From: Campylobacterales bacterium
GTDB lineage: Bacteria > Campylobacterota > Campylobacteria > Campylobacterales > QNZT01
Length of the DNA: 32,642 nucleotides
Assembly: GCA_027084135.1 (NCBI GenBank)
Contig: JALWLO010000129.1
Location: forward strand, 1-32,642
Direction of reading: 5' to 3'
Below, in pieces: positions 2,674 through 15,475 of this stretch. Positions within the stretch are counted from its first letter, which is position 1; each line of letters opens with the position of its first letter. Under the pieces are notes generated by a model that saw only the letters and a list, made by a program, of their open reading frames with translations, ran no database searches and was not told where the DNA came from. The position numbers were made by a program, and so were the translations under genes.

Positions 2674-5600
2674 TTATATATAGTTTTGCAATATCGTATT
2701 GAGATAGGTTTGATCGGCACTGTTGATGAGTACTTCGTCAAACTTGGATCTGATCGCATCATCGATAATAGTGTCAAAACTTCTAAATAGTATCAGTGCC
2801 GTCTTATCTCTTTCCTCTATACTATCGATAAGGACTCTAAGATCTAACCCCTCTATCTCTTTATCCACCATTACCACTCTATATCTATGGTTTCTTAATA
2901 ATTCGAAAAACTCTTCCACATTTTCGGCTGTATCTATTTGGGAGTAACTTTTGCTCAATACCTTCTCAAATATCTTCGTCTCGACTTGGCTCTTTTTAAA
3001 GATCAATATATCTCTAAACGCCTCATACCTCTCGTCGATCACTCTCTCTATATTTGCTTCGACCTCCTCCTCTCTTGTCTCGTCGCTACTTGATCTTTGC
3101 GTCTCGTCGATCGTGATATCGTACTTGAGAAGGATCTCTTTGATCTCGCTCTCTTTTGCCGGTTTACTGATATAGTCATCGAGCCCGTCATTTAAAAATC
3201 TCTCTTTGTCACCCTTTAGCGCATTTGCCGTTACCGCTACAATCGGAGTGTGAGCCAAGCCTTTTGACTTTTCATATTTGATGATCTCCTTCGTTGCCGT
3301 TACCCCATCCATCACAGGCATGGCAATATCCATAAAAATCAGGTCATATTGATGCTCTTTGACCGCTTCTAGCGCCTCTTTTCCGTTATTGACCGTTGTC
3401 GGGTTGAGGGAGAAGTTGGTTATGATCTTTTTCAAAAGTCTTTGATTGATCTCATTATCTTCGGCAATGAGGATATCTTTTTTGATGATTGAACTCTTTT
3501 TCCTCTGGATAGTCGGCTTCTCTTTTTTCAGAGGGGTGATATTGATATGATGATCTTTTGCGATTTGGGTCAATTTTTCGACCAATCGACTGAGATTTAC
3601 AGGTTCACTCATAGGGTAGATGCGCTTTTTCTGATAGGGTGAGAGTCTTGAGTAGTATTTGGTCGGGAAGATGACTATGGAGGGGAGTTTATACTTTTTA
3701 AGAAACTCATACTCCTCTTTCGAGAGAGCCGTAAAGTATGCGATGATCACCTTTGCATCAAACTTTTTCTCCTTTTTTAGCTCACTGAAGCTTACGACTT
3801 TAGCTTTTGCTCCCAAATAGTTAATACATCTGCTTAGAAGTTTACTCTTATAGCTATCTCTACTCTTTACAATGAGTGCGTCAAGGTACTTAAATCTTCC
3901 TCTATGAATCTCTTTAAGAGGGTTTCCTTTTTTGAACTCGAGTGTAAAGAAGAAGTTGCTACCTACACCTTTTTTACTCTTTACCTCGAGTTTTCCACCC
4001 ATTAAAGATACATAGTTGTAGGAGATGGTGAGTCCTAGTCCGGTACCGCCATACTTTCTTGTGATGGTGGAGTCAGCTTGTCTAAATGCGTCAAAGATAT
4101 CGCTCATCTCCTCTTCACTCATGCCGATACCGCTATCGCTCACCTCAAAATAGATCCTCTCTTTTGCATCGCTTTCATTTGAGAGCTTTTTGATAAGTAC
4201 GATGATTTGACCACCCTCTTTGGTAAATTTTACGGCGTTTGAGATTAGATTGAGAAGAACCTCCTTGACCTTTACGACATCACCGATGAGATATCTATCA
4301 AATCCGCAATCCATTAGGAGTGTTAGATTGATATTTTTATCAGCGGCTTTTGGAACATAGACATCTATACTGTTTTCAAACTCTTCAACAGGCGAGAAAG
4401 GCATCTCATCAAGTTCGATTTTATTGCTCTCTATCTTAGATAGATCTAAGATCTTGTTGATGATTTCAAGCAAGTTGTCGGTGCTTTTATCAATGATCTC
4501 AACATACTCTTTAGCCTCTTTATCAAGGTTTCGTTTTTTGAGAAGCTCTGTAAAGCCGACGATACCGTTTATCGGTGTTCTGATCTCGTGAGACATATTT
4601 GCCAAAAAGATACTCTTTGCCGCATTTGCCCTCTCAGCCTTTTTCTTCTCGATAGCGATCTTATCGACACTCTTTTCGATGATAGAGTAGGTTTTATCTA
4701 TCCCCTCGGTAGTTCCAAGGTCAATCGTATCCTCTATCAGTGCATACTCCACGATCTTATCAAGTATCTTCTCAAGACCCTTAGTAGAGTAGAGGTATCT
4801 GTTGAGTTTGCTATATACAAAAAGGGCATAGAGTGAAAATAGGGCAACCAATAGCGCTAATAGCGCTTTGATGAGTGTATAGCTTTTTTCGCTCTCAAGT
4901 GCCTTATGCATCTCAAGCAGAAGAGAGTTTGCGGCTCTGTTTAAGTTTATAATCTTTTTTGTTTCGAGTTTAAACCACTGAACCGGATCGATTTTGACAA
5001 CTCTTGAGCTTAAAAGCTCTTTTTTGATCTCGTTGCTTTTGGTGTTTGCATCGATAAACTCATCTTTATCGATAGCGCTTTTGATAATATTTAGGCTATC
5101 TTTATCGAAAGTTTTAAAGAGGTGCGAGAGCTTTGCATCTTCAAATATTTGAAGTAGTAGAAGATTGTCTCTTTTTACTCTACTACTTAAGATATTGGTT
5201 ACATTGTCTCGTTCATTTGCAACCGCTCTTATTAGATCAAGTATCTTAAGATAGCTATTATATAGTGCATGTAGTTTGAGTGTTGGAAAGTTTTGAGCTC
5301 TCTTCTCTTTGGTTAAAATGGCACTATTGATCTCGTCAAAATAGGCAAAACTCTTTTCATATGGGAGTTGAAATTTATCGATAGAGGCTCTGATTTTGCC
5401 GATTTTCTCTATTTTACTGAGTACTCTATTTGTTATAATGTTTGAGGCACTATTTTGGGTATAATAGGTTTTGGCTGCTTTGATAGCGTTGTCACTTATC
5501 TCTCTTTGAGCCAAGAGCAGTGCTTTACTCTTCTCTTGTCTGCTTAGATTGTATAGCGTGCTCAAACCTCTCTCTCTAGATAGGTTTATAAATAGTGATT

Positions 5601-5748
5601 TTAGTACCTTGCTCTCATCTAGAGAGTGTTGGAAACTTTGGATAACTCTATAGTGGATCAAAGAGCTATAGAGTATATAGAAACTCCCTATTGCCAAGAG
5701 AATAATTGGAATAATCGTCACTACTCTTAGGTTATTTTTTATCTTCAT
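2674..5748 (-). CDS. Hybrid sensor histidine kinase with NIT-like sensor and receiver domains
   Basis: 1024-residue membrane-bound hybrid kinase. A transmembrane helix (about 10-30) precedes a helical periplasmic sensor (about 40-290) that carries RERGLST (58-64) and a second NERDN element (178-182). This resembles the nitrate/nitrite-sensing NIT domain (PF08376). A second helix spans about 291-313. The transmitter has HisKA with His387 in NMSHEIRTP, Asn504 of the N box, DSGIGM (538-543) and GGTGLGL (567-573). A degenerate receiver-like region (about 621-735) follows, then a canonical receiver (758-875) with phospho-acceptor Asp807 and Lys862. The C-terminus (about 910-1024) looks like a further degenerate receiver with Asp962. 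No DNA-binding output domain is encoded beside it. It heads the operon with the nucleosidase-like, SDR and GAPDH-like genes. Confidence 0.9.
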
Positions 5749-5866
5749 TTAGCTTATCAACTCCATTCGTTATAAAGTTGCAACTCCTTCATTTGTTGGA
5801 AATAATTTCACTAGTACTAGGTTAATCATCTTTTTTGAAGCAGTGCATAAACTCTTTATGGTGATG

Positions 5867-5875
5867 ATTATAGCA
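5867..5875 (-). promoter_or_regulatory. Extended -10 promoter for the histidine-kinase operon
   Basis: On the minus strand the sequence reads TGCTATAAT, a perfect extended -10 element, about 120 bp before the kinase ATG. It would give a leader of roughly 110 nt. Campylobacterota sigma-70 promoters typically rely on the -10 box with a weak -35, which fits. Seen in sequence; activity is inferred. Confidence 0.5.
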
Positions 5876-5897
5876 TTTAAGCCTAAAAGATTAATAG

Positions 5898-6067
5898 TTA
5901 AACCCAAATTTTGCATTAGAGATTCACAACCTTTTGCAAATATTTGGCTATGAGCTTTTACAAATAATCATCAACTTAACCTCTTGGTTAAGCTCAAATT
6001 TTTTGCAAATACCCAAAATCAAAGCATTTACCAAATCTTTGCCAATTCTAATGCAAATTTGGGTTAA
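5898..6067. repeat. 170-bp imperfect palindrome (MITE-like or large hairpin)
   Basis: The outer arms at 5898-5920 and 6047-6067 are reverse complements apart from two single-base indels; the core is CCCAAATTTGCATTAG. The inner arms also pair imperfectly, for example GCAAATATTTGG near 5936-5947 against CCAAATCTTTGC near 6031-6042. The centre is a clean hairpin, CTTAACC (5975-5981), loop TCTT, GGTTAAG (5986-5992). The symmetry is centred on one point across the whole 170 bp. It could be a decayed miniature inverted-repeat element or a long hairpin RNA. No target-site duplication is clearly visible. Confidence 0.65.
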
Positions 6068-6172
6068 AGATTTTGCAGGAAGAGGTGAAGATATCCCCTT
6101 TAAAGAAAATATTCTTAATAAAATATTTCGAAAAGTAAATATATTGTCTATTATCCTCCGATATATCTTTTA

Positions 6173-7693
6173 TCAAAACAGATCTTTGATCTCCTCTTTT
6201 TTCTCTAAATTCACCCTATCTTCAGTAGAGTTGTTTGATTCTGTTCCGTTTAGCTCATCAAAAATCATATCGAGCGTTTTTGCGAAAGATTTATGTGCTC
6301 TACTTTCATCCTTTTGGGTTTGAATCTTCATCTCGATCTCATCATGAGCATGAAAGAGCGCACCCTCTTTTTCCTCTTCGATCTTGATTTTCTGCTCCTG
6401 CTTATTTAGACTTATCGTTGGAGTAGCCACCTCTTGTGGTACAGTTTCACTTACATTTGGTCTACTATCACCGTTTGAGTCTATCTGTTCTAAGTCTATT
6501 TTGATTTGATTGATGATATCCGCTTTACTTTTCTGCTTTAGCTCCTCTTTTTTTGCAACACTCTCTTGCTCTATGGTACTAAAGATATTGATGTTGCCAC
6601 TTCCGCTTTCTGGACTCTCTTTATCACCATCACTCTTGATAAAGTCGCTATTGAGACTAAAGTCTCGTTTCTCTTCTTCCACTCTCCCCTCTGCCATATT
6701 ACCCTTTTTGAGTGACCACTCGCTCTCTTCTTCACTCTTCTCTTTGATAGATATTTGAGGCTCTACCTTTTTCTTGAGTACCGCTTGAGGCTCCTCATCA
6801 ATCGCTTCACTTTTGCTTTCTTCCTCATCATTGAGATTTATTTTGAGAAAACTTAGATCTATACCGTTACTGTTTGTAGGTGTAGAAGGTTGTTCTTCTG
6901 CTTTTATCCCAAAGTCATCAGCTTGGAGATCACCGCTATGATCTTCATCCAATTTGATGTTGAGATTTTGAGTAGTATCGTTATGTTGCGCTTTACTGCT
7001 CTTATCTATCTCTAGTTTTATAGAAAAATCACCCACACTTTCAGTTCTCAAACGCTCCTCTTGAGTCTCATTTTCAATGCTATTACCAAAGAGAGGAGGC
7101 TTTATCTCTAGGTCATCGGTAGATAGGTTTTGACTATTGAGACTATCGGGTATATCGATCTCTAGTTCATCACTTGGCTCTTGTGTGGCTTTTGGTTCAT
7201 CTTCACTCTTGATAAGGTTTATGGATAGATCAGGAGTAGTCTCTCTTTTCTCTTCATCCTCCTCTTGTGGGGCTACTGACGGATCGATGATCGAATTGAG
7301 TGAAAAGTTGCTTTTGGGTTGTTCTCTTTTGATATTTGGATTGACTTTACTGGCAATTTTGATAAATTGATCGGTGATAAGTCTTACACCGTAAAATTTA
7401 GTTACCCCTTCTAACTCTCTTGTTAAAAAGACCTCTTTGACCGTTATCTTGATCTCGACCTCTTCTCCACTTTTTAACTTGACGATCGCCTCTTTATTGG
7501 GAGCACCGCTATAGAGTATATAGTCAAGCCAAGAGAAGTTTTGAAAGTTATAGATATACCCCTCTTTTTGTACCAAAAGTTCAGAAAAATCGTTGTGTTG
7601 AGCCATAAAGTCCTGAATACTCTCATAGCCTAAAAAGCTCACTGTTTCATTGCTTACACCGATAAAGTTATAGTTTTGATCATAAAGTATCAA
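6173..7693 (-). CDS. PAS-domain protein with long acidic tail of iterated short motifs
   Basis: 506 residues. Residues 1-108 look like a single PAS domain (ILYDQNYNFIGVSNE, then FLGYES and WLDYILYSG, ending FYGVRLITD). The rest is a highly charged, probably disordered tail rich in Glu, Asp, Lys and Ser. In it a short motif of the form [D/N][F/L/I]S[I/L][K/N] recurs about a dozen times, for example near 128, 154, 193, 221, 242, 259, 312, 343 and 425. A final helical segment, KSFAKTLDMIFDEL (468-481), precedes the C-terminus. The start is TTG at 7693, with GGGG six bases upstream, 14 bp after the uvrC stop. There is no signal peptide, so it should be cytoplasmic. I do not recognise the family and assign no function beyond a likely sensory or docking role. 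Confidence 0.75.
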   Translation of the reverse strand: MILYDQNYNFIGVSNETVSFLGYESIQDFMAQHNDFSELLVQKEGYIYNFQNFSWLDYILYSGAPNKEAIVKLKSGEEVEIKITVKEVFLTRELEGVTKFYGVRLITDQFIKIASKVNPNIKREQPKSNFSLNSIIDPSVAPQEEDEEKRETTPDLSINLIKSEDEPKATQEPSDELEIDIPDSLNSQNLSTDDLEIKPPLFGNSIENETQEERLRTESVGDFSIKLEIDKSSKAQHNDTTQNLNIKLDEDHSGDLQADDFGIKAEEQPSTPTNSNGIDLSFLKINLNDEEESKSEAIDEEPQAVLKKKVEPQISIKEKSEEESEWSLKKGNMAEGRVEEEKRDFSLNSDFIKSDGDKESPESGSGNINIFSTIEQESVAKKEELKQKSKADIINQIKIDLEQIDSNGDSRPNVSETVPQEVATPTISLNKQEQKIKIEEEKEGALFHAHDEIEMKIQTQKDESRAHKSFAKTLDMIFDELNGTESNNSTEDRVNLEKKEEIKDLF

Positions 7694-7707: not shown

Positions 7708-9507
7708 TTATTTAATATTTTTAATCTTTAATGCGATATTGGCACCGACGACTCGTTTAAGCTCCTCATAGGAAGCCTTTTGGATATTGCTAAAAGTCTC
7801 AAAATATTGCAAAAGTTTCTTGATTGATCCTTCACCAACACCTTTTGTTTTGAGAAGAGAGATCTTTTGATCTCTCCTTAGCTTCACCTTTTTGTGGTAA
7901 TTTATCACAAATCTGTGAGCCTCATCTCTAATATTTTGTAAAAAGTGTAGCCTCTCATCGCTACTTGATAACCTAAGTGCACCATCTTTTGTATAGATGA
8001 TATCTCTTGCCTTTCCTTTTGAGCGATTTGCTTTGTGATCAATCTTCTCTTTTGCAACTGCAACTATATCGACATTCGCACCTTTTTCTTTAACTATTTG
8101 AATAGCAAGTTTTAAAAGGGTCTCACCGCCGTCTATGACCATCAGATCCGGTGGCGGATTTGTTGAAAACTTCTCCACTCTTCTGCTAAGAAGCTCTCTC
8201 ATCTGAGCATACTCATCTTTAGCCTCTAAATTGTAGTGTTTATACTCCTTTTTGATAAATGTTCCATCCCACTTGATCACCGCGCCGACTGTTGCTTCAC
8301 CACCTAAGTGTGAATTGTCGTACCCCTCTATCACATAAGGCGTTTTTGATAGGTTGAGTAGCTTTTGGAGCTTTGTTAAAATCTCATCCGAACCTTTTTT
8401 CTCTTTTTTGATCAACTCTTTGGCATTTTGATACGCAAGTTCGGTGAGTCTCCTCTTTTGACCGATTTTCGGAACGGTTAGATTGACCTTTCTCTTAAAC
8501 TTCTTCTCCAAAAATCTTTCGATACTCTCCATATCTTCAAACGCTTCATAGAGTAAGATATCCTTTAGTACTACCAGTTCATTTTGATAGTATGAGAGCA
8601 AAAATCTACGATAGAGTTCTGCTTTGTCAAAACCGCTTTGAGATTTGAAAACGGAGTGAGTACTGGAGACAACACGCCCGTCTCTGATAAAGATTCTGAT
8701 TCCGCAAGCCTCTTTTTCACCGATATAGATCGCAAAAATATCATAATCCTCCAGTTTCGCTAAATCGATGTTGGAAACAGCGCTACTGCTCTTTATCTTC
8801 TCTATAGCATCTCTGATTCTCGCGGCATCTTCAAAGCGTAAAGTTGAGGCATACTCCTCCATCTTCTCTTGCAGTTTTGCCAGCAGACTCTTTTTGTTGT
8901 ATAGAAGCTCCATCGCCTCATCTACAAGCTCTTTATACACCTCTTTACTCACTTTACCCTCGCAAGGCCCTAGGCATCTCTTGATCTGATAAAAGAGACA
9001 TAGGGACTTTTTTTTGATATCTCCCTCTCTTTGTACTAAAGGAAATAGCTCATAGATGGAGTCTAGTATCTCTCTAGCGGCGGTAGAGAAGGGACCAAAG
9101 TATCTTATCTTTTTCCCCTTTACCACTTTCCTCGTGATTTTGAAACGGGGAAAATCTTCTGATAGATCGATATAGATATAGGGATAGGTTTTATCGTCTC
9201 TAAGAAGAATGTTATATTTTGGGTTTAACTGTTTGATGAGTGAGTTTTCAAGTATGAGAGCATCATGCTCACTATCGACGACGATATATGAGAGAGAGGC
9301 GGTTTCTAAGAGCATTTTGTGGATTCTAGGTGAAAGATTTGGTGCGGGTGAAAGCTTAGGTGTATAGCGAAAATAGCTTTTTACCCGTTTTTTGAGAGAT
9401 TTTGCTTTTCCTACATAAAGTAGCTTTCCGTCACGATCGAAGTATTGATATACTCCTGGACTATCGGGAAGCTTTTTGATACGCTCTTGGAGGCTATTTT
9501 GATCCAT
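7708..9507 (-). CDS. uvrC: Excinuclease ABC subunit C
   Basis: 599-residue UvrC, the nuclease that makes both incisions around a UvrB-bound lesion in nucleotide excision repair. The GIY-YIG nuclease domain is at the N-terminus (SPGVYQYF at about 17-24, LLYVGKAKSLKKRV at about 29-42). A UVR motif that contacts UvrB lies near residues 212-232 (ASTLRFEDAARIRDAI). The RNase H-like second nuclease domain includes GYDNSHLGGE and MVIDGG, and the C-terminus has tandem helix-hairpin-helix motifs (KTKGVGEGSIKKLL, then VVGANIALKIK). Length is normal. It overlaps the upstream DUF721-like gene by 14 bp and is followed after 14 bp by the PAS-protein gene. One TAGTACTA site lies at 8566. Confidence 0.97.
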   Translation of the reverse strand: MDQNSLQERIKKLPDSPGVYQYFDRDGKLLYVGKAKSLKKRVKSYFRYTPKLSPAPNLSPRIHKMLLETASLSYIVVDSEHDALILENSLIKQLNPKYNILLRDDKTYPYIYIDLSEDFPRFKITRKVVKGKKIRYFGPFSTAAREILDSIYELFPLVQREGDIKKKSLCLFYQIKRCLGPCEGKVSKEVYKELVDEAMELLYNKKSLLAKLQEKMEEYASTLRFEDAARIRDAIEKIKSSSAVSNIDLAKLEDYDIFAIYIGEKEACGIRIFIRDGRVVSSTHSVFKSQSGFDKAELYRRFLLSYYQNELVVLKDILLYEAFEDMESIERFLEKKFKRKVNLTVPKIGQKRRLTELAYQNAKELIKKEKKGSDEILTKLQKLLNLSKTPYVIEGYDNSHLGGEATVGAVIKWDGTFIKKEYKHYNLEAKDEYAQMRELLSRRVEKFSTNPPPDLMVIDGGETLLKLAIQIVKEKGANVDIVAVAKEKIDHKANRSKGKARDIIYTKDGALRLSSSDERLHFLQNIRDEAHRFVINYHKKVKLRRDQKISLLKTKGVGEGSIKKLLQYFETFSNIQKASYEELKRVVGANIALKIKNIK

Positions 9508-9970
9508 TTTTGATGATCTTCCTTATCTCTTCAAACTTTTTTTGCAGATTACTATCTTTTGATAAGACCTTAAACTCTCCTCTAGCTCTCTCATCAAAGT
9601 GGTTATCACACGCATACTCAAAGAGCTCCTCTCTCTTCTTCTCTTTATATGTCACAAACGATTTGATTTCATTTATCTCAATATCTGCACAACTTTTATC
9701 AATATTTTTAATTTTATTTAATAAGCTTTTTATTAAATTGTGATTATAATCTATCTCCATTTTGATACCAGGGTGCTTGAGTGCGATAAAAAGCGTTCTC
9801 TTTTTTTGATAAACAAATGCGATATGCTGACGGAGATGTTTAGGAAGAACGGAGATAAGCTTTATGAAGCAAGCATGGGTTGAAAGTTTTTTAAATTGAG
9901 GTTTTTGTAAAAAATGAGTTTGAATAATCTCTTTAGCGCTGTTAAACTTTTTAGAATAGACTTTTTTCAT
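9494..9970 (-). CDS. DUF721 / DciA-like protein
   Basis: 158-residue basic cytoplasmic protein. The central segment (about 41-90: LPKHLRQHIAFVYQKKRTLFIAL, then GIKMEIDYNHNLIKSLLNKI) resembles the core of the DUF721 family, whose best known member DciA helps load the replicative helicase. The rest is low-complexity and Lys/Glu-rich. The assignment is by fold pattern only, so confidence is moderate. It heads the operon with uvrC (14-bp overlap). The start at 9970 has no ribosome-binding site, but a perfect extended -10 lies so close upstream that the mRNA may be leaderless. The first 57 bp overlap, head to head, a small lipoprotein gene on the other strand. Confidence 0.65.
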   Translation of the reverse strand: MKKVYSKKFNSAKEIIQTHFLQKPQFKKLSTHACFIKLISVLPKHLRQHIAFVYQKKRTLFIALKHPGIKMEIDYNHNLIKSLLNKIKNIDKSCADIEINEIKSFVTYKEKKREELFEYACDNHFDERARGEFKVLSKDSNLQKKFEEIRKIIKNGSK

Positions 9971-14565: not shown

Positions 14566-14569
14566 ATTG

Positions 14570-15475
14570 ATGAAGCGTTTTATAAAGTTAGTACTAACAA
14601 TGGGGCTCTTTTTCGCTTCAACACAGGGCTTTTCAAATCAGGATGACATTGAAAAAATATATCAGTCGCTAAAACCTCAATATGAGTCTATGAGTAAGCT
14701 GAAAGAGGTAGCAAAAAAGGGAAAAACGATCAACTACATATCCGCCGCTTTGGCGCTAGTAATTTTTTTACTATTTGCGAAATTTTTTAAACTTTACGGT
14801 GTGATTGTCGCCCTTATGATGATAGCCGCCGGCTACTATGTCATAAATCGTGCAAACAGTGCACCCAAAACATATGAAACGCTCTTTAAGCAGAAGATCA
14901 TCTCCCCCTTAAGTGGAGGATATCGATATACCCCCGATGCGATCACACTGCAAGATATCAAAAACTCAAAGATCTTTTTGCCGACAATCAAAAACTATAC
15001 GATTGTCGATACCTATCGAAAGAGAAATATCAGTTTAGCGTATGTCGTTGCGATATTTTATACGAAAGAGAATGCATCGGTAGAGCGATTTAACGAAAAT
15101 AAGTTTAACGGAATATTTATCAAGTTAGAGAAGCCGACAAAAAGTAACGGCGTTGTGATAAGTGACGCTTTTAGAGAGAAGGTTGCCGATATGGATATCG
15201 AATTTTCAACCTTTTTTGCTGATGCGAAGCGAGTAGGGAAGCGAGAAGGTTTTGATATTTACGGTGAGATACGCGATGAAGAGTTTGACAAAATTGTAAA
15301 ACTTAGCGATAAAAGCGTAGCGATCTCTTTTACAAATGATGCGATCTATATCCTTCTTTATCGTATTGAAGACCCCTTAAAGGTGGATATTTTTAGGGAG
15401 TTCAATCGACAAGTTACACAAGAGTATGCTGAATTTTTCAAAATGGTTGACGAGGTTGTAGAGCTATTTGAGTGA
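14570..15475 (+). CDS. DUF3137-like membrane protein
   Basis: About 301 residues. A signal-like N-terminus (KRFIKLVLTMGLFFASTQGFS) and a short helical region precede two transmembrane helices (about 56-92, AALALVIFLLFAKFF and VIVALMMIAAGYYVI). The C-terminal soluble domain contains NGIFIKLEKP and FFADAKRVGKREGF, resembling the DUF3137 family of unknown function. I chose ATG at 14570 over the TTG 3 bp before it. It sits 4 bp after guaA and its end overlaps hemD by 8 bp. The palindrome GTTAGTACTAAC lies at 14587-14598, inside the signal-sequence codons. Function unknown. Confidence 0.7.
   Translation: MKRFIKLVLTMGLFFASTQGFSNQDDIEKIYQSLKPQYESMSKLKEVAKKGKTINYISAALALVIFLLFAKFFKLYGVIVALMMIAAGYYVINRANSAPKTYETLFKQKIISPLSGGYRYTPDAITLQDIKNSKIFLPTIKNYTIVDTYRKRNISLAYVVAIFYTKENASVERFNENKFNGIFIKLEKPTKSNGVVISDAFREKVADMDIEFSTFFADAKRVGKREGFDIYGEIRDEEFDKIVKLSDKSVAISFTNDAIYILLYRIEDPLKVDIFREFNRQVTQEYAEFFKMVDEVVELFE

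Follow-up and report, generated by a model that had tools for sequence, protein, structure and literature searches.

A PAS protein with an acidic motif-array tail in a Campylobacterota histidine-kinase operon: a putative kinase-docking scaffold

The PAS protein described here is almost certainly, in both identity and history, one family's version of a PAS–linker–HPt protein encoded in a histidine-kinase operon of the Campylobacterota, as judged from sequence comparisons. The window, that is, the whole stretch of DNA that was analysed, comprises 32,642 nucleotides of a contig from a Campylobacterales bacterium, and its taxonomic family is referred to below as f1. As read from the aligned genes, the HPt phospho-histidine and the receiver gene of the operon are gone from f1, and the whole HPt domain is gone from the window protein; the former linker is now a lengthy acidic chain, predicted to be disordered, whose array of motifs is conserved above the remaining tail. 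We propose that a component of a phosphorelay has been remodelled into a scaffold that docks on the kinase, an explanation which, taken as a whole, we consider evenly poised between right and wrong. The preliminary description of this DNA had not recognised the family, but the protein can be placed, as a remodelled PAS–HPt member of a histidine-kinase operon. Literature searches, among open-licence papers, returned no earlier description of a PAS motif-array protein.

The PAS gene and its operon

The gene occupies positions 6173–7693 on the minus strand, as an open reading frame of 506 residues with a TTG start codon and an AGGGG ribosome-binding site just upstream, and it begins 14 nt past the upstream gene of the cluster (7708–9507, minus strand), which is conserved in position and which we name uvrC from its sequence. 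The genome holds one copy of the PAS gene, and orthologues were found in 21 of the 22 f1 genomes, the exception being a genome that is 65% complete. A scan of contigs with the single window protein as the query confirmed no relatives, and a scan with an alignment as the query then succeeded. At E ≤ 1e-5, a profile of the PAS domain picked up relatives in 99 of the 298 genomes examined in the class, although some of its weaker hits are to ordinary PAS domains.

Residues 1–117 (7343–7693, minus strand) adopt a PAS fold in the AlphaFold2 model, with a pLDDT of approximately 95, and comparison of this model with PAS and LOV chains by VIA gave Z-scores of 8.4–9.2 over 91–110 aligned residues. The single PAS domain of the preliminary description is therefore borne out by the fold, even though Pfam is silent: searches of the window protein against Pfam and NCBIfam matched no family, PAS_9 was touched by just four of 21 relatives (all at E ≥ 0.032), and the cut-off of the curated PAS model was not reached. 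A sequence search of the PDB with the PAS alignment gave two chance matches and nothing else. There are 18 invariant columns in the domain across 21 relatives; none of the invariant positions in this alignment (A1) is a Cys or a His, and we do not claim a cofactor. The mean identity of the domain is 0.58 in f1 compared with 0.61 in the SU group, so that the PAS domain itself has not been tightened in f1.

The gene belongs to an operon found across the Campylobacterota, in the order uvrC, PAS protein, hybrid histidine kinase and single receiver. The fuller order is a dciA-like gene, uvrC, an Aer-like PAS gene (some families), the PAS protein, a Sel1-repeat gene (some families), the hybrid histidine kinase and the single receiver. 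The PAS gene adjoins the hybrid kinase across the families of the class, and the receiver follows in most families outside f1. With a threshold of E ≤ 1e-20, an orthologue of the single receiver beside the kinase was detected in 12 of the 14 genomes used as controls and in none of the 22 f1 genomes; in three f1 genomes searched more loosely, the best matches were paralogues, at 1e-12 to 1e-13.

Several further features of these loci were recorded. The Hydrogenimonas operon carries both an Aer-like PAS gene (PAS_3; L057:5576-5998) and a Sel1-repeat gene (L057:7707-8108), and the two also occur in the operons of some other families and are absent from that of f1. In the window, 424 bp (5749–6172) separate the PAS and kinase genes, a long spacer for this operon when compared with 24 bp in the f1 relative L022 and 137–166 bp in the genus mates L023 and L024; it contains a terminator-like hairpin at 5973–5994 on the minus strand, together with inverted repeats. 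On the other side of the cluster, a 158-residue open reading frame (9494–9970) that overlaps uvrC has a weak match to DciA (E 0.0013, below the cut-off), and many relatives keep a similar frame ahead of uvrC. At 14567–15475, between guaA and hemD/purD, lies a gene for a 302-residue membrane-type protein of no known family. The guaA–purD interval is the site of cheO in C. jejuni, according to PMC9665402; we rejected this gene as cheO, because its product reads as a membrane protein and CheO is described as probably cytoplasmic.

Composition and motifs of the tail

The tail beyond the PAS domain is acidic, with an acidic fraction (Asp and Glu) of 0.24, a basic fraction (Lys and Arg) of 0.13 and a net charge of −45 over 388 residues. 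By pLDDT and composition, residues 118–381 (6551–7342, minus strand) are mostly disordered, with pLDDT values below 50 across most of residues 148–378, and the same AlphaFold2 model places helices in the distal tail, at residues 382–406, 447–482 and 494–505. The earlier picture of some 400 disordered acidic residues was thus right as to acidity and as to the region 148–378, but because of the C-terminal helices the tail is not uniformly disordered. A long disordered region, a mark of kinase-recruiting scaffolds such as PodJ and SpmX, is present in the window protein, where it also bears repeated, conserved motifs.

The strict form of the motif, [DN][FL]S[IL][KN], occurs four times in the window tail, compared with 0.02 times in shuffled tails: as NFSLN at residues 129–133 (7295–7309; all motif coordinates are on the minus strand), the first copy past the PAS domain and widely kept in f1 as F-S-L-x-x-L, as DLSIN at 155–159 (7217–7231), as DFSIK at 222–226 (7016–7030) and as DFSLN at 344–348 (6650–6664). 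A looser core, [FLI][SNGTD][IL][KN], has nine copies compared with 0.69 in shuffled tails, and motif-like cores include LNIK at 244–247 (6953–6964), FGIK at 261–264 (6902–6913), ISIK at 314–317 (6743–6754) and ISLN at 427–430 (6404–6415). Neither count was reached in any of 10 000 shuffles, and the motif is therefore real and far beyond chance, although the 'about twelve' repeats first counted require still looser definitions. Nor does the motif recur regularly, as had been supposed: the gaps between the four best sites in the window are 26, 122 and 69 residues, and the spacing is not conserved among homologues.

The motif was then described for the family by expectation-maximisation on 18 f1 tails, with the genus of the window excluded. 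The consensus is [DE]-F-[KSN]-L-[DN]-[FLI]-[LP]-K-x-[ED], with the core [DE]-F-x-L-[DN]-[FLI]-[LP]-K, and the f1 tails contain 2–12 copies each, compared with 0.1–0.6 when shuffled. As the weight matrix was trained on these 18 tails, the counts that are independent of training are those for the window's own genus and those obtained by leaving out one genus at a time. The latter gave 105 sites in 21 f1 tails compared with 8.1 in shuffled tails, with an excess in all six held-out genera (g1, 11 compared with 1.1; g2, 2 and 0.1; g3, 16 and 0.4; g4, 26 and 2.0; g5, 10 and 0.8; g6, 40 and 3.7). In the window tail the matrix found four sites of at least 6 bits, compared with 0.38 in shuffled tails and a maximum of two in 300 shuffles; the copy nearest to the family consensus is GIDLSFLKIN at residues 277–286 (6836–6865; 7.5 bits). 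This is a weak array beside the 6–12 sites of many relatives, and the motif may therefore be decaying in the window protein.

Conservation of the motifs was compared with that of the surrounding tail in seven homologue pairs. In all seven, the motif cores were approximately twice as identical as the remaining tail (0.48–0.92 compared with 0.26–0.46), and hydrophobic residues showed identities of 0.62–1.00 within motifs and 0.28–0.55 outside them, values that apply to pairs picked by hand as close relatives and in which the motif-guided alignment somewhat inflates the identity of the motifs. These figures, with the excess of sites in the held-out genera, show that the tail does not vary freely within f1.

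The array is confined to f1. There, 136 matches were found in 20 proteins compared with 7.9 expected, and the other groups lie at or near background, with 3 matches found and 3.5 expected, 5 and 2.8, 7 and 4.7, 7 and 5.5, 4 and 3.4, and 5 and 2.7 in the larger of them. Homologues lacking the motif, which the preliminary description would have counted against its reading, are thus the rule outside f1, but within f1 the array is conserved. A search for a tandem repeat, as a trace of origin by DNA duplication, found none, and a DNA-pattern scan of the 22 f1 genomes revealed no second motif-bearing protein, the number of matches being of about the same order as in the reversed-pattern control.

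Two further motifs, each present in a single copy, lie in the helices of the distal tail. The first, IINQIKIDLEQID at residues 393–405 (6479–6517, minus strand), falls in the helix 382–406, with a block-mean pLDDT of 86, and its family form, IxQIKxDIxEID, occurs in 18 of the 21 proteins from f1; contig ends truncate the remaining three. The second, SFAKTLDMIF at residues 469–478 (6260–6289, minus strand), lies in the helix 447–482 and is found as SFxxTLxxLF in 15 of the 21. Neither pattern was matched among relatives outside f1, and the two (the first by its segment QIKxDIxEID) are candidates for docking as good as the motif array.

The HPt domain and the partner kinase

In the families f8, f9 and Hydrogenimonas/f11, the C-terminus of the PAS protein consists of one or more HPt domains, one of which, that of the Hydrogenimonas protein L057, is called by Pfam (PF01627) at 2.8e-15. 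The phospho-histidine is present in 13 of 13 proteins of f8, six of six of f9 and nine of ten of Hydrogenimonas/f11, the tenth being cut by a contig end; elsewhere it is found in two of 23 Sulfurospirillum-like proteins and in none of the ten from f3, the five from termite gut and the 15 from f1. Five Hydrogenimonas proteins (L055, L057, L059, L062 and L066) have two HPt domains, the first with Phe, Met or Ile in place of the His and the second intact. The presence of the domain with its phospho-histidine in three families argues that the PAS protein was ancestrally a phosphorelay component. On the kinase tree, in which the placement of SU_L041 and SU_L046 is unsure, the histidine label needs two changes, a figure that we do not put forward as the number of losses. 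An active HPt domain was probably the ancestral state, the tree itself being unrooted.

In f1 the HPt-like domains carry Ile, Val or Lys at the position of the phospho-histidine. The fold is well preserved in the relative L022, in which residues 482–575 form a four-helix HPt domain (pLDDT approximately 93) whose top five PDB matches are HPt proteins. The window protein and those of its genus mates L023 and L024, all complete, have no HPt domain, and the best match to an HPt remnant in the 424-bp gap downstream of the PAS gene scored 4.8 bits, which we take as chance; the f1 proteins of L026, L034 and L039, which run off their contigs, were given no verdict. Other HPt proteins are encoded at two places in the genome of the window, so that REC2 of the kinase might yet pass phosphate to a different partner.

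The partner kinase (2674–5748, minus strand; 1024 residues) has the architecture NIT-HisKA-HATPase-pseudoREC1-REC2-pseudoREC3. Pfam identifies the NIT, HisKA and HATPase domains and one receiver, and alignment adds receiver-like domains before and after REC2. REC2 (3133–3483) possesses the phospho-Asp, as do all 58 kinases of the compared set, and in pseudoREC3 (residues 912–1024; 2677–3015), the docking site that we propose, the acidic pair is replaced by Lys-Lys.

The conservation of these domains was compared in pairs of kinases matched for HATPase identity (means of 0.71–0.77; 81 pairs in f1, 39 in SU, 41 in f8 and seven in f9). The identity of pseudoREC3 was 0.62 in f1 compared with 0.40 in SU, 0.41 in f8 and 0.33 in f9. 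REC2 and pseudoREC1 moved in the opposite direction and are less conserved in f1, with identities for REC2 of 0.63 compared with 0.76, 0.79 and 0.73, and for pseudoREC1 of 0.30 compared with 0.56, 0.49 and 0.46, in the same order. Within pseudoREC3, the f1 values exceed those of SU most in beta4-alpha4 (0.71 and 0.33) and beta5-alpha5 (0.85 and 0.59) and less in beta3-alpha3 (0.58 and 0.35), and beta2-alpha2 is unchanged (0.36 and 0.37). The beta5-alpha5 value in Hydrogenimonas, 0.82, is near that of f1, and the ratio of pseudoREC3 to REC2 conservation is near 1 in two shallow groups, those from termite gut (0.87) and f3 (1.01); the comparison omits seven f3 kinases missed by the H-box pattern, among which L155 has the box and the other six are without it. 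On the tree, all f1 kinases group in a single clade (100/100) whose stem branch is long (0.62), and the tightening of pseudoREC3 must therefore be counted as one evolutionary event rather than as repeated evidence.

In CheY, the alpha4-beta5-alpha5 face is the binding site of the FliM and CheZ peptides. The tightening of pseudoREC3 in f1 falls mostly on this same face, which we therefore propose as the receptor for the array or for one of the helical motifs; for the array, pseudoREC3 is a tentative candidate, with the chances somewhat against it. The signal is a correlation, and could reflect self-association of the domain or another partner.

Twelve kinases were read in f3, which, judging by its likeness to named loci, is apparently the Campylobacteraceae. 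Six of them no longer have the H-box histidine, the N-box and the G-box, and the HATPase and HisKA models barely match these six. All six, from the genus g8, are full-length open reading frames in the same operon (L139:1391-4261, L140:1396-4257, L141:1337-4258, L144:743-3613, L153:1406-4252 and L154:743-3613), two of them looking alike, and all six keep the pseudoREC3 signature ILxxKK[ST]xxENKIF, with Ile or Val variants. They are kept beside a PAS protein whose HPt-like domain is dead. As the genes are retained despite the loss of the kinase boxes, the system can apparently lose its phosphate chemistry and still be kept.

Proposed docking on the kinase and other explanations

We propose that the PAS domain would still sense or oligomerise, with an output that is no longer phosphate transfer, and that the motifs, each binding weakly, would together recruit the partner kinase and tune its activity, the likeliest receptor being the alpha4-beta5-alpha5 face of the C-terminal pseudo-receiver. 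That the array docks on the partner kinase at all we consider probable, by a modest degree. The composite claim, in which a phosphorelay became a docking machine, losing its phospho-histidine and its output receiver and gaining a multivalent array that docks on the pseudo-receiver, is doubtful as a whole. The multivalent docking scaffold of the preliminary description is thus supported in part: the array is conserved within f1 and fits docking, but its spacing is not conserved and it does not extend beyond f1.

The strongest competing explanation, unlikely but a serious one, is that the motifs bind a target other than the kinase, such as the chemoreceptor array, the flagellar switch, a polar ATPase or the PAS domain of the same protein, and that the protein is a localisation factor. 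The alternating hydrophobic pattern of the motif could form short edge strands, an Aer-like PAS gene sits in the Hydrogenimonas operon, and ChePep is a lineage-specific polar signalling protein of the Campylobacterota. CheO is another, as described in PMC9665402. In the loci read, however, the PAS gene keeps company with the kinase and not with chemotaxis genes, and the AlphaFold2 model, in which the tail has pLDDT values below 50, does not place the motifs in an ordered way against the PAS domain, a weak argument in itself.

It is less likely again that the motifs are self-adhesive 'stickers' separated by spacers, that the protein phase-separates and that the kinase is a client of the condensate. 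Many hydrophobic stickers along an acidic disordered chain would suit such behaviour, and phase separation with kinases has been reported for the bacterial scaffolds PodJ and SpmX (PMC8980812 and PMC8849385). Particular positions of the motif are nevertheless kept (Asp or Asn at position 5, Leu or Pro at 7 and Lys at 8), a pattern that suggests a defined receptor more than unspecific adhesion. Least likely of all is that this arm of the phosphorelay is degenerating, with a drifting tail and a motif that is a leftover or a compositional quirk, because, despite the loss of the HPt histidine, the HPt domain and the receiver gene, the low motif count in the window and the absence of even the kinase catalytic boxes from the f3 relatives of g8, the PAS domain and the orthologues are kept in f1 at the levels given above, and the motifs, being conserved above the remaining tail and absent from relatives with an active HPt domain, look like a gain.

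Docking on the kinase, the reading that we prefer, can be set beside three known kinds of system. The protein resembles HPt phosphotransfer proteins and HPt-bearing proteins such as RcsD (PF01627) through its orthologues in f8, f9 and Hydrogenimonas, which have a C-terminal HPt domain with the phospho-histidine, and through their operon, in which a hybrid kinase and one receiver complete a phosphorelay-like set; it differs in that the window protein is without the HPt domain and its f1 relatives keep the fold with Ile, Val or Lys at the histidine position. ChePep, a signalling protein specific to the Campylobacterota and known from Helicobacter and Campylobacter, likewise has a folded N-terminal domain followed by a long acidic disordered region, but its N-terminal domain is a receiver and that of the window protein is a PAS domain. 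In the Caulobacter pairs PodJ–PleC and SpmX–DivJ, a long disordered region reportedly concentrates one histidine kinase and modulates it, and the scaffolds reportedly lie at the pole and phase-separate (PMC8980812 and PMC8849385). The likeness to these would be functional, and we claim no homology; in the window, moreover, the PAS domain is part of the proposed scaffold itself, which has kinship with a phosphotransfer protein.

A proposed partner and a specific face on it make the docking idea directly testable. If the reading of f3 is true, the operon has there gone further, and contact between the PAS protein and pseudoREC3 would be a function that has outlived the phosphate chemistry. The relatives display a series of stages, namely an active HPt domain, a dead HPt domain with the receiver, a dead HPt domain with the motif array, no HPt domain, and a dead kinase. 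To our knowledge, arrays of short linear motifs with an identifiable evolutionary origin have rarely been described in bacterial signalling. The operon would thus offer a traceable case, within one phylum, in which enzymatic phosphotransfer has apparently been replaced by multivalent motif docking.
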